This document shows, one piece after another, positions 32,687 through 54,580 of a stretch of 64,000 bases of DNA. Numbering within the stretch: the first letter of the stretch is position 1; every line of letters starts with the position of its first letter. The DNA is from Fundidesulfovibrio agrisoli (lineage in GTDB: Bacteria > Desulfobacterota > Desulfovibrionia > Desulfovibrionales > Desulfovibrionaceae). The stretch is taken from NCBI RefSeq assembly GCF_022808715.1, contig NZ_JAKZKX010000002.1, positions 136,623 through 200,622 of the forward strand, written 5' to 3'. The notes below the pieces were generated by a model, which saw only the letters and a list, made by a program, of their open reading frames with translations, ran no database searches and had not been told where the DNA came from. A program made the position numbers and the translations under genes.

Positions 32687-32751
32687 GGCGGGCTCCTTGG
32701 CGGAGCGCCGGGTGGGTCGGGGGGTGCGCCGGGCCTTTGCCCGCCCTGCGG

Positions 32752-32838
32752 GTCCGATTCCCTCCGGCAGTCCGAACTGCGTCAGGTTCAATGGGTATGA
32801 TCTCAGTTCCGGCGCTCGGGCCGGAACACCCCAATCGG
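32752..32838 (-). promoter_or_regulatory. TPP riboswitch (THI element)
   Basis: On the minus strand the conserved blocks occur in order: GGGGTG, a variable GC hairpin, CTGAGATCATACCC, then TTGAACCTGA, a short P4/P5 arm and GGAGGGAATCGG. This matches the TPP aptamer consensus. It ends about 65 bases before the thiM start. That gap contains GC-rich sequence without a clear terminator, so control is probably at translation initiation. Confidence 0.92.
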
Positions 32839-32978
32839 CCCATGCAGGCTAGCCCCGCACCCGCATCAATGCAAGCGCCCGGATGGGGAGCGGCGGCAAT
32901 CCTTCGCCCCGCTGCGTGTTGACTTGCACCGCCTCAGGGCGTAGCGGCCCGCAATCACCGCACCTACCGGACCGGACA

Positions 32979-50250: not shown

Positions 50251-50961
50251 ATGGCGTCCGATCATGGCCGCAGCGTGGCCTCCATGTTCGGCCGTATCGC
50301 CGGCTGGTACGACTTCCTGAACCATTTCCTGAGCCTCGGGCTGGACATCCTCTGGCGCAGGCGGCTGGTGGACCACATCGGCGTTTCCGCCTCGGGCAGC
50401 CCCCGCGTGCTGGACCTTGCCGCCGGAACCCTGGACGTCTCCCTGGAGATCGCCCGGCGCTTCCCCCGCGCGCGCATAGCCGCGGCGGACTTCTGCCTGC
50501 CCATGCTCACGCAGGGCGCGCAGAAGCTGGCCCGGCGCGGCGTGGCCTCCATCGCCCCGGTGCAGGCCGACGGCAGGGCCCTGCCCTTCCCGGACGAAAC
50601 GTTCGAGGCCGCCACCATCGCCTTCGGCATCCGCAACATCCGGCCCCGCTCCGAGGCCTACGCGGAACTGCTGCGGGTGCTCAGGCCCGGCGGCAGGCTG
50701 TGCATCCTGGAGTTCGGCTCCGGCAAGCAGCGCATCCTGGGCGGGGTGTACAACCTGTACCTGAACCGGCTCCTGCCGCTTCTGGGGAAAGTTTTTTCGA
50801 AGGATGACGGGGCGTATCAGTATCTGGCCGACACCATCCGCGAATTCCCGGACGCGCCCTCCCTGGCTCAGGAGATGCGCGCCTCGGGCTTCGCTTCGGT
50901 CAATTGGGAGCGCCTGGCTTTCGGCATCGTGGTCATCCACGTGGGCGTCAAGCAGGGTTGA
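50251..50961 (+). CDS. menG: Demethylmenaquinone methyltransferase (MenG/UbiE)
   Basis: This is a 236-residue class I methyltransferase. The start VASMFGRIAGWYDFLNHFLSLGLD, SAM motif VLDLAAGTLDVSLEIA, and AFGIRNIRPRSEAYAELLRVLRPGGRL are the UbiE/MenG signatures. It carries out the final C-methylation of the menaquinone ring. mqnB and a polyprenyl synthase are encoded 1.9-2.7 kb downstream, supporting a quinone cluster. Confidence 0.92.
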   Translation: MASDHGRSVASMFGRIAGWYDFLNHFLSLGLDILWRRRLVDHIGVSASGSPRVLDLAAGTLDVSLEIARRFPRARIAAADFCLPMLTQGAQKLARRGVASIAPVQADGRALPFPDETFEAATIAFGIRNIRPRSEAYAELLRVLRPGGRLCILEFGSGKQRILGGVYNLYLNRLLPLLGKVFSKDDGAYQYLADTIREFPDAPSLAQEMRASGFASVNWERLAFGIVVIHVGVKQG

Positions 50962-51175: not shown

Positions 51176-51277
51176 GGGCAGCACCTAGCCCCAGCGGGGA
51201 GGTCCTGTCCAGTGCGCTTGCTGGCCGGGGCAAACTCCGGTAAGGACCCTTCGCCCGATTTCATTTTGGAGAAACAT

Positions 51278-52591
<1,314 letters not shown>

Positions 52592-52592
52592 C

Positions 52593-52814
52593 ATGCCGAT
52601 GCCCTGCCTGAATTGCGCACAGGACTGCTGACGCGGCTTCCTGGAAGCGAGTTCGCTTCTGAAGTCACTGCCCAGCGGTTGCGCGATCGAGGTGGAGATC
52701 CGCCCGGAACAGCGCCGCAAGCTCGACCTGGTGGCGGCTCACCGCAAGGCGGACGTGGAGTCCGTGCGGGACGCCGAGGAGGGCTTGTGCGTGGCCGTGG
52801 TCAGGAAGCGCTGA
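52593..52814 (+). CDS. Candidate TusA/SirA-like selenoprotein (in-frame UGA at codon 13)
   Basis: The frame reads ATG through 12 sense codons (MPMPCLNCAQDC), then TGA at 52629-52631, then 60 sense codons to TGA at 52812. GGAGG lies seven bases before the ATG, and the terminal stop is one base before mqnB. This is ideal operon spacing at both ends. Read through, Cys12-Sec13 is 17 residues from the conserved Gly (LPSG), the same spacing as CPxP to Gly in TusA. The end EEGLCVAVVRK also matches the TusA pattern. A hairpin with a G23-U24 loop follows the UGA. Sec insertion is inferred; the selB/selC machinery is not in this window. Confidence 0.8.
52629..52664 (+). promoter_or_regulatory. Putative bacterial SECIS element
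   Basis: Counting U of UGA as 1, GAAGCG (16-21) pairs with CGCUUC (26-31) around the loop A-G-U-U (22-25). G23 and U24 are therefore unpaired, exactly as in the E. coli fdhF SECIS. CUUC (9-12) can pair with GAAG (33-36) to extend the stem. The bulged U17 of fdhF is not present (A17). Confidence 0.7.
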
Positions 52815-52815
52815 A

Positions 52816-53580
52816 ATGACGCTGGCCCTGGCGGCGGCCACCCCGGGCGAACTGCGCCACGCACTGGCCAAGGTCGCTCCGGAGTTGGCCGGGCCGGAGA
52901 ATGCCGGGCCGGAGTATGCCGGGCCGGAGTATGCCGGACGGATACCCGCGAGGGGCGCGGCCCGGGCCAGGATCGCCGGGCGGGACGTATTGCTGCTGGT
53001 CACGGGCGTAGGCCCGCTGGCCGCCGCCCTGGAGGCCGCCGCCGCCCTGGAGCGCTTCGAGGTGGCGGGGATGCTCAACCTGGGCGTGGCTGGCAGCTTC
53101 GACACGGCCAAGGCCCCCCTGCTGGCCCCGGTGGCCGCCAGCGAGGAGGTCTGCGCCGATTTCGGCGTGGCCGGGCCGGACGGGCTTGCCGACGCCTCGG
53201 GCTTCCTCTTTCCGCAGTGGGAAGGCGGGGGCGAGAAAATTTTCGACAGGATACGCCTGCACCCGGACGAAGCCGCCAAGGCTCTGGGACTCGCCCTGCC
53301 GCAAGGCTGGTTGCGCGCCCCGGCGCTGACCTCGGCGGCGGTAACGGGCTCGGCGGAGCGCGCCGCGGCCCTGGCCGCCAGGCACGGGGCGCTCACCGAG
53401 AGCATGGAGGGGTTCGCACTCGCCCTGGCCTGCCGGGCGCGGGGCTTGCCTTTTTTGGAAGTTCGGACAATCTCCAACCCTGTCGGAGAACGCGACCACA
53501 AGCAATGGAAGCTCGCCCAGGCCCTCGCCGGGCTGGGAGACGTGCTGGCCGGGCTCATGCCCGTCCCGGGCGTCGGGTAA
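52816..53580 (+). CDS. mqnB: Futalosine hydrolase MqnB
   Basis: This is a 254-residue nucleosidase of the MTAN/PNP fold. VTGVGPLAAALEAAAAL and NLGVAGSFD form the purine site. TESMEGFALALACRARGLPFLEVRTISNPVGERD is the futalosine-hydrolase version of the catalytic Glu and Asp region. It cleaves futalosine to release hypoxanthine in the Mqn menaquinone route. Residues 26-41 hold a GPExAGPExAG repeat arising from tandem 15-base units. The ATG is one base from the preceding stop. Confidence 0.88.
   Translation: MTLALAAATPGELRHALAKVAPELAGPENAGPEYAGPEYAGRIPARGAARARIAGRDVLLLVTGVGPLAAALEAAAALERFEVAGMLNLGVAGSFDTAKAPLLAPVAASEEVCADFGVAGPDGLADASGFLFPQWEGGGEKIFDRIRLHPDEAAKALGLALPQGWLRAPALTSAAVTGSAERAAALAARHGALTESMEGFALALACRARGLPFLEVRTISNPVGERDHKQWKLAQALAGLGDVLAGLMPVPGVG
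52896..52945 (+). repeat. In-frame 15-base tandem repeat in mqnB
   Basis: The unit GCCGGGCCGGAGTAT occurs about three times (the first copy with AAT), adding Gly-Pro-Glu-Tyr-Ala type repeats to a surface position. The unit length keeps frame. Confidence 0.75.
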
Positions 53581-53611: not shown

Positions 53612-54580
53612 ATGAACACATTCGCCTCATACCTGGCCGGGGAGCTTCCTAAGATCGAAACGTGCCTGCACGACCACGTGGCCACGCTCAATCCTTACGT
53701 CAAGCCCATGGCCGAGCACGTGCTCCAGGCCGGAGGCAAGCGCCTGCGCCCCGTGCTCACGCTGCTGTGCGCCCGCGCCCTGGGCTACTCCGGGGGCGAC
53801 CCCTACCCCCTGGCCTGCTCGCTGGAGGTGCTGCACTCCGCCACGCTGCTGCACGACGACGTGCTCGACGGCTCGGAGCTGCGCCGGGGCAGGCCCGCCG
53901 CGCACACTCTCTTCGGGGTGGGGCAGTCCATCCTGGCGGGCGACGCGTTGCTGGCCCTGGCCAACGTCATGATCGCCTCCTACAACGTCCCGCCGCTCAT
54001 GGTCTGCCTGTCGCAGGCCATCCTGAACACCGCCAGCGGCGAAGTGCAGGAGATCGCCCGCGTGCGCGACGTTACCATGGACATGCAGGGCTACCTGGAC
54101 ATCATCACCGGCAAGACCGCCTGCCTGATCCAGTCCGCCTGCGAGGCCGGGGCGCTGCTGGCCGGGGCTTCGCCAGAGCTGGTCAAGGCGGCGGCGGATT
54201 TCGGCATGAACATCGGCATCGCATTCCAGTTGGTGGACGACGCGCTGGACTACTCCTCCCCCAAGGAGGTCTCCGGCAAGCCCAAGGGCGCGGACATCCG
54301 CGAAGGCAAGCTGACCCTGCCGCTGATCTTCTACCTGGAGTCCCTCGACGACGCCGGGCGCGAGCGCTTTACAAAAGCTTTCAAAGAGAACACATTGCAG
54401 GAGAGTGAGCTGGAATCCACCCTCGTAGCGATCAACGCCGGAGGCTTTGTGGAACGCACCCGCGACATGGCCGCCTCTTACATACAGGACGCCGGGCGTT
54501 GCCTGGCGGCCTTCCCCACCACTCCGGAAACCTCGCTGCTGTATGCCGCCTTGGAGGGCATGGCCAAGCGCGACAAGTAA
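53612..54580 (+). CDS. Trans-polyprenyl diphosphate synthase
   Basis: This is a 322-residue all-helical prenyltransferase. GGKRLRPVL precedes the first Asp-rich motif DDVLD at 82-86, and the second (DDALDY) is near 213. Conserved KPKGADIREGKLTLPL follows. It builds the isoprenoid side chain, most likely for menaquinone given the adjacent mqnB and nearby menG. It starts 31 bases after mqnB and ends 8 bases before the HDOD-GGDEF gene. Confidence 0.9.
   Translation: MNTFASYLAGELPKIETCLHDHVATLNPYVKPMAEHVLQAGGKRLRPVLTLLCARALGYSGGDPYPLACSLEVLHSATLLHDDVLDGSELRRGRPAAHTLFGVGQSILAGDALLALANVMIASYNVPPLMVCLSQAILNTASGEVQEIARVRDVTMDMQGYLDIITGKTACLIQSACEAGALLAGASPELVKAAADFGMNIGIAFQLVDDALDYSSPKEVSGKPKGADIREGKLTLPLIFYLESLDDAGRERFTKAFKENTLQESELESTLVAINAGGFVERTRDMAASYIQDAGRCLAAFPTTPETSLLYAALEGMAKRDK

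Follow-up and report, generated by a model that had tools for sequence, protein, structure and literature searches.

A short gene of Fundidesulfovibrio agrisoli contains an in-frame TGA at codon 13, and we found that this TGA, an RNA hairpin located directly behind it, and the encoded protein are all conserved among relatives, whereas the TusA fold of the protein is a model prediction. Gene content suggests that the source is a sulfate-reducing member of the Desulfovibrionales, phylum Desulfobacterota. The gene lies in a 64,000-nucleotide stretch of DNA, all of which was analysed and which is called the window here. Our overall reading, which we consider likely, is that the gene encodes a TusA-like protein found only in a selenocysteine (Sec) form, which serves either to relay sulfur or selenium or as a redox carrier; the function is inferred. 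It is very likely that the UGA is read as Sec, an inference from conservation and from the presence of the Sec machinery that is not supported by expression, mass-spectrometric, or 75Se data.

The coordinates of the gene and its neighbours are given in Table 1. The original prediction, made from the sequence alone, described a GGAGG-N7-ATG start, 12 codons, the TGA, 60 further open codons, and a stop one base before mqnB, and this layout is exact: 12 codons run from the ATG to a Cys, followed by the TGA, the 60 open codons, and the stop codon, with a single base between the latter and the mqnB ATG. The upstream gene, predicted as a UDP-sugar dehydrogenase, was confirmed as a nucleotide sugar dehydrogenase by its TIGR03026 match. 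The translation of the read-through product is MPMPCLNCAQDC-Sec-RGFLEASSLLKSLPSGCAIEVEIRPEQRRKLDLVAAHRKADVESVRDAEEGLCVAVVRKR. Because the window is GC-rich and contains 250 open reading frames of at least 80 amino acids, many of them overlapping, a bare open frame is little evidence here, and it is conservation in 85 genomes, with a single TGA in each, that raises the Sec gene above the level of chance. The Sec gene is placed amid menaquinone genes, namely those for a UbiE-type methyltransferase, MqnB, and a polyprenyl synthetase. Two other features of the window were observed: a short in-frame repeat of gccgggccggag-aat/tat units near the start of mqnB (~52888-52938), and a TPP riboswitch at 32742-32843 on the minus strand (60.4 bits, gathering score 54.3).

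Table 1. Positions in the window of the Sec gene, its internal elements, and neighbouring genes.
Feature	Positions	Strand	Basis or remark
UbiE/COQ5-type methyltransferase	50251..50961	+	PF01209, 193 bits
Nucleotide sugar dehydrogenase, upstream neighbour	51212..52591	+	TIGR03026, 386 bits (cut-off 190); mechanical open reading frame, real start possibly further in
Ribosome-binding site GGAGG	52581..52585	+	7 bases 5' of the ATG, within the end of the upstream gene
TusA-like selenoprotein gene	52593..52814	+	73 residues, Sec at 13; TGA-bearing relatives in 85 genomes; predicted fold
Sec-encoding TGA, codon 13, preceded by Cys12	52629..52631	+	Cys and Sec columns invariant in 50 rows
bSECIS hairpin	52644..52659	+	Stem 52644-52649 with 52654-52659; AGUU loop 52650-52653
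Stop codon (TGA) of the Sec gene	52812-52814	+	Sequence
mqnB, futalosine hydrolase, downstream neighbour	52816..53580	+	TIGR03664, 184 bits (cut-off 125)
Polyprenyl synthetase	53612..54580	+	PF00348, 231 bits

The distribution of the family was evaluated in 348 genomes of the order and in a phylum sample of 395 genomes, both of which include the genome of the window. With the window protein as query, 15 of 59 genomes matched (its own included), and all 15 had one in-frame TGA. Profile A1, built from those 15, matched 55 of the 348 order genomes (54 with one TGA) and 26 of the 395 phylum-sample genomes (25 with one TGA), and profile A2, built from 50 diverse members, matched 56 (54 with one TGA) and 32 (all with one TGA), respectively. 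When the two samples are combined, the Sec family is present in 85 genomes of this phylum, and every one of them has a single in-frame TGA. The proteins of 74 of these genomes were inspected by eye, and C-U was present at the Sec site in all 74; the remaining 11 rest on the stop count of the search only. The members used for A2 and for the hairpin were extracted by a pattern requiring [DE]-C-U, which 69 of 69 fetched TGA loci passed, and five later loci were taken with a looser pattern, all of which had C-U, preceded in one by Asn.

The matches that departed from this pattern were set aside. That of genome G167, which lacks an inner TGA, was 32 residues long, and by-eye inspection of its surroundings suggested the antisense strand of a gene resembling 6-phosphogluconolactonase; that of G613, also without an inner TGA, was a 16-residue chance match to A1 that disappeared with the broader A2; and in G330, marked as having a TAG, the TAG is an ordinary end codon and the protein is a Cys-containing TusA outside the Sec family. 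One locus (L123) was a chance pattern match in a TusA locus and was dropped before the hairpin counts. Contigs of named organisms gave no match to the window-protein query (P0001), and an 18-residue Cys-coded match in Novosphingobium, obtained on such contigs with profile A3, was taken as chance.

The original prediction proposed that homologues with UGA or Cys at position 13 be sought, and that a lack of conservation past the UGA or a sequencing error would refute it. Homologues with UGA were found, the sequence is kept beyond the UGA, and an error is excluded because other genomes carry a TGA at the same codon. In six congeners, dN/dS 3' of the TGA was below 1 in all 15 pairs (range 0.09 to 0.85). 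The presence of the TGA in 85 genomes thus rules out a chance open frame, a sequencing error, and a pseudogene. No Cys version of the Sec family was found in the 348-genome order sample or the 395-genome phylum sample, and such a version should have scored at least equally because both profiles carry Cys at the Sec column. This does not prove its absence, since both samples come from a single phylum and the search scored no more than 14-16 first-look candidates per genome, nor does it bear on other phyla.

All 50 A2 members have Cys12 and Sec13. Position 11 holds Asp in 47 of them and Glu in the other 3, Gly occupies position 15 in 42, and Phe or Tyr occupies position 16 in 45. The core of the family is C-U-x-[GA]-[FY], mostly with Asp in front. 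The motif comes in two styles, CWxDCUxGFxExSSRL throughout most of the window's order and, elsewhere, DYRxDCUxGFxDVSLRLR or IDSRKDCUKGLVGVGLRFR. The additional cysteines to which the original prediction drew attention fared less well: Cys5 is not conserved in A2, 29 of the 50 members have Cys at position 8 whereas 18 have Tyr, and the proposed C-x2-C-x3-C-U start holds for the close kin of the window and not for the family as a whole. Variation was also seen at the N terminus. Three members of genus g45 (L090-L092, 4001-4267, minus strand) have a possible N-terminal extension with an extra Cys before CWDDCU, the start having been chosen by script. In a group with L074, L076, and L077 (Sec codon near 1525-1605) and L159 (upstream of the Sec gene), the open frame with the Sec domain is 167-223 codons long, and the portion of this frame upstream of the domain has hydrophobic, signal-peptide-like stretches, so that some members are perhaps exported or leader-bearing.

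The hairpin behind the TGA was also predicted, as a GAAGCG/CGCUUC stem with G23-U24 in the loop, and this held. The stem in the window is GAAGCG and CGCTTC around an AGTT loop, with G23-U24, numbered from the U of the UGA, inside that loop. The six-pair stem starts 12 nt 3' of the TGA without gaps over 68 distinct 48-mers, and the loop has four bases, as in the window, in 35 sequences and six in 30. Position 23 is G in 67 of the 68, and G-U is present in 58. For pair counts, 30 of the 48-mers were in set A5 and 35 in set A7; L007, L079, and L086 fit neither register at 5/6 pairs and were omitted. Paired cells amounted to 99.4% (A5) and 99.0% (A7), values that are biased upward because the sets were selected by pairing, and both-side changes are therefore the better measure. 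These numbered 31 cells in A5 and 43 in A7 versus 8.0 and 14.6 in shuffles, levels equalled by 8 and 6 of 500 shuffles, respectively. The level of pair types was equalled by 0 of 500 shuffles for A5 and 53 of 500 for A7, and covariation scores were 0.52 and 0.65 versus 0.02-0.26 for slid versions. For A6, an earlier second set holding 31 of the 35, two of five measures were not above the shuffles (202 and 328 of 500).

Synonymous recoding supported the same conclusion: the family mean of 5.85 of six pairs dropped to 4.32, and none of 300 replicates was as high. The codons of this control were drawn from the same 48-mer region, which makes it conservative. The local fold was more stable than the mean of its own control in 68 of 68 sequences, and the window sequence alone has six pairs versus 3.95 in recodings, 2.3% of which reach six. 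Of 55 sequences with Ser at codon 8, 53 use AGT, a preference that is odd for GC-rich genes unless the RNA matters. The published bSECIS rules (PMC13188914) are satisfied by 67 of 68 members and 0.54 of synonymous recodings, and they also pass 64.5% of the 1475 TGA triplets of the window and are thus loose in such DNA. A strict version (at least six unbroken pairs, a 4- or 6-base loop that begins 18 nt past the UGA, and G in the first two bases of that loop) was met by 62 of 68 members versus 0.086 of recodings and 7 of the 1475 window TGAs. At gathering scores, Rfam recognised no SECIS anywhere in the window, and its only match around the Sec gene was at 15 bits versus 80.

The machinery needed to read such a codon is present in the same genome, where a check for selA, selB, and selC had been suggested. 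We found a tRNA-Sec with a TCA anticodon, SelB (367 bits, cut-off 242), and SelA (604 bits, cut-off 268), the latter two on one contig. In the phylum sample, SelB was above the cut-off in 353 of 395 genomes, including all 32 carriers matched by A2; given this background, the co-occurrence of carrier and machinery is consistent but weak.

It is very likely, although predicted by model, that the protein belongs to the TusA/SirA superfamily and consists of one beta-alpha-beta-alpha-beta-beta domain. An AF2 model of the window protein made from A2 had a mean pLDDT of 90.7; its elements run E-H-E-H-E-E, and helix 1 begins at residue 12, with Cys12-Sec13 at that point. The leading structure match was TsuB/YeeD from the complex for thiosulfate uptake (Z 11.4 over 73 residues, 2.0 A, 16% identity), followed by a SirA-like structure (Z 10.4) and E. 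coli TusA (Z 10.1, 9.8, and 9.1). The next structures were HP1264 (Z 9.0) and Alba (Z 8.8), so that the lead over unrelated rows is small for the weaker TusA chains (9.1 versus 8.8). No Foldseek match reached E 0.001, the top three being chains of the TsuA-TsuB complex at 1.1-1.6e-3. The predicted fold of a second-branch member had the same leaders, at Z 9.1-10.4, followed by 8.2 and 7.7.

Profile comparison gave the same assignment. Against 22 TusA domains, hhalign returned a probability of 92.5 and an E of 5e-7 over 56 columns, versus an E of 0.018 for the best of 30 column shuffles and 0.011 for the reversed profile. The window protein itself had no significant Pfam match, TusA (PF01206) included; PF01206 matched 8 of 50 members at E up to 10 (best 2.1e-6), and the three family matches for which bit scores were available, at 12.8, 14.2, and 19.9 bits, fell short of its cut-off of 28.6. 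BRCT_2 matched 5 of 50 members (best E 0.0059), which was taken as chance. None of 11 members, the window protein included, came near a cut-off in NCBIfam 20.0, and a PDB sequence search returned only two unrelated matches (E 0.57 and 1.5). The predicted likeness to TusA therefore held by fold and profile, though not by a Pfam match of the window protein alone. Elsewhere in the same genome, two adjacent weak TusA-domain matches in long frames were seen (C23:144305-144454 and C23:145129-145257; L099 and L100), and such pairs recur in several relatives.

The CPxP motif of TusA is absent, all 50 A2 rows having Cys followed by Sec, so the mechanism of TusA is not simply transferable. The alignments disagree as to which residue occupies the position of the catalytic Cys. 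With the N terminus forced into the alignment, hhalign placed Cys12 there, as had been predicted, and Sec13 at the following Pro, whereas HMMER, using the DCCP-containing TusA of G330 and one other TusA, placed Sec13 at the catalytic Cys with the Pro of CPxP deleted. We lean, with some reservation, toward Sec13, which agrees with the D-x4-C-[C/U] pattern and with the distance to the leading Asp.

Gene neighbourhoods were compared by clustering the neighbours of 59 loci, with crude gene calling. A nucleotide sugar dehydrogenase was directly upstream in 19 loci, 14 of which also had an mqnB-type gene directly downstream; an mqnB-type gene alone was present in 2, ribosomal protein S1 upstream with a TauE/SafE transporter downstream in 10, and a LysR upstream in 5. 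Recurrent neighbours were absent in 23 loci, one of which (L154) does have a LysR. A single protein was tested per cluster to name those of the dehydrogenase, mqnB, and TauE, and S1 was read from the sequence. The LysR just upstream was above the cut-off of NF040786, the selenium metabolism-associated LysR, in all seven loci tested (the five, L154, and L184), at 254.6-274.3 bits versus 250, and this LysR subfamily has been linked with Sec biosynthesis (PMC5322559). The context thus varies, as it would for a housekeeping carrier, and in one lineage it ties the Sec gene to selenium. In genus g8 (L171-L175, L178, and L179), the gene was seen to follow a 2-hydroxyacyl-CoA dehydratase-like gene and its activator, both identified by eye, and S1; 2-hydroxyacyl-CoA dehydratase-like genes also occur near selenium genes (PMC5322559).

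In the mechanism that we propose, UGA 13 would be decoded by tRNA-Sec and SelB, aided by the hairpin directly behind it, and would place Sec13 and Cys12 where the first helix begins, either at the persulfide site of TusA or beside it. In TusA, the sulfur is bound to the Cys as a persulfide. The Sec may accept sulfane sulfur or selenium from a desulfurase, a Sec lyase, or polysulfide, and Cys12 may resolve or release the chalcogen by way of a Cys-Sec selenenylsulfide; with a selenol in this position, both loading and unloading should be quicker. The idea of a Cys-Sec redox or sulfur/selenium-transfer protein, put forward in the original prediction, is supported as a reading with an inferred function. 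A chalcogen relay is the most likely specific function, although it could as readily prove wrong as right; donor, acceptor, chemistry, and sulfur transfer are all inferred.

The strongest alternative is a thiol redox protein, in which a Cys12-Sec13 selenenylsulfide would reduce disulfides, peroxides, or oxidised sulfur but would carry no chalcogen atom. The adjacent Cys and Sec are invariant, and most uncharacterised selenoproteins are held to be likely redox proteins (PMC13188914); however, the TusA fold and profile homology suggest a sulfur carrier, and a selenium-linked regulator adjoins the gene in one lineage, and we consider this alternative clearly less likely than not. Handling of metals or metalloids (Hg, As, or Se oxyanions) through the Cys-Sec pair is unlikely. 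Some CU-motif families in the 2026 selenoprotein table are mercury- or metal-related (HgcA, SaoL, and MbdU; PMC13188914), and two genes among the neighbours in one group were read by eye as cobaltochelatase-like and molybdopterin oxidoreductase genes, but the fold is that of TusA, and no metal gene was found among the few neighbours tested against families. A bolder form of the relay, also unlikely, is a dedicated selenium carrier that would bind selenium or sulfur on its Sec and hand it to selenophosphate synthetase or another acceptor; in its favour, one lineage has the gene directly after that for the selenium LysR regulator, and, if true, a selenoprotein would feed selenoprotein synthesis. 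It is very unlikely that the UGA is a selenium sensor, with termination at codon 13 under low selenium uncoupling the translation of mqnB and the frame serving as a regulatory leader: the tight packing between two genes would fit, but the codons past the UGA show conservation at the protein level throughout the phylum, whereas the next gene varies by lineage. A true stop followed by a decayed or chance frame, for which there is nothing beyond standard gene calling, is all but excluded by one TGA in each of 85 genomes and by the constraint on protein and hairpin.

We return to the Sec-only TusA-like protein as the preferred reading. The original prediction knew of no described family with a C-x2-C-x3-C-U start, and the Sec family is absent from the 119 prokaryotic selenoprotein families tabulated in 2026 (PMC13188914) and from NCBIfam as scanned with 11 members. 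TusA/SirA has no entry in that table and no mention in that review, neither name is mentioned in PMC9312934 or PMC12013277, and the sections of PMC4607533 and PMC1914089 that bear on the matter contain no such family. No description of a TusA-like selenoprotein was found in the open-access literature searched, and we consider it likely that the family is new to the literature, with the reservation that most subscription papers and all preprints were outside the search. Searches based on Cys/Sec pairs would tend to miss it because no Cys version turned up in the genomes searched; deep-Sep, for example, needs the top ten matches to include either a known Sec homologue or two or more Cys homologues (PMC12013277). 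The family would add to the 119 and would place Sec in a sulfur-carrier fold, where the table lists none. TusAD transcripts rise on selenium depletion in a methanogen (PMC11097638), and the route by which SelD receives selenium is, by a 2026 account, not yet fully worked out (PMC13188914). A small TusA-like protein that contains Sec and is encoded beside a selenium LysR is a concrete, testable candidate for this role.

Several known systems resemble the Sec family in part. Hypothetical selenoprotein DG (NF049953) has the motif GUxG in comparison to C-U-x-G here; the 11 members scanned had no match in NCBIfam 20.0, although the presence of NF049953 in that release was not checked. Selenoprotein forms of the DsrE-like, rhodanese-like, and YeeE/YedE families are tabulated (PMC13188914) and likewise have Sec in sulfur-related families, but in other domains. 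YedF (TIGR03527), a SirA-like plus DsrE-like protein linked to selenium (PMC5322559), shares a TusA-like domain with a selenium connection, whereas it has two domains and CPxP and the Sec protein is a single domain of 73 residues. The DCCP-type TusA of G330 (L211:3995-4216) matches the Sec profile over positions 6-76 of 78 (E 1e-4) and shares D-C-C/U with the family; it differs in having Cys instead of Sec, in keeping the Pro, and in lying beside ThiF, and it is an ordinary TusA (PF01206, 5.2e-15). The surrounding region (L211:1836-6613) was observed to contain ThiF and a ThiI-like protein beside this gene; a cysteine-desulfurase-like gene and one for quinolinate synthase were recognised there by eye. 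The best structural match is TsuB/YeeD (8k1r, 8j4c), which belongs to the YeeE-YeeD system for thiosulfate uptake, but the identity is 16%, and no YeeE was recognised among the neighbour clusters, for which no dedicated search was made. Relative to TusA/SirA itself (PF01206; E. coli TusA 1dcj and 3lvj), the Sec family is alike in length, in the predicted beta-alpha-beta-alpha-beta-beta fold, in having its presumed reactive residues where helix 1 begins, and in profile homology, and is set apart by C-Sec-x-[GAP] in place of CPxP and by one in-frame TGA in every member found.
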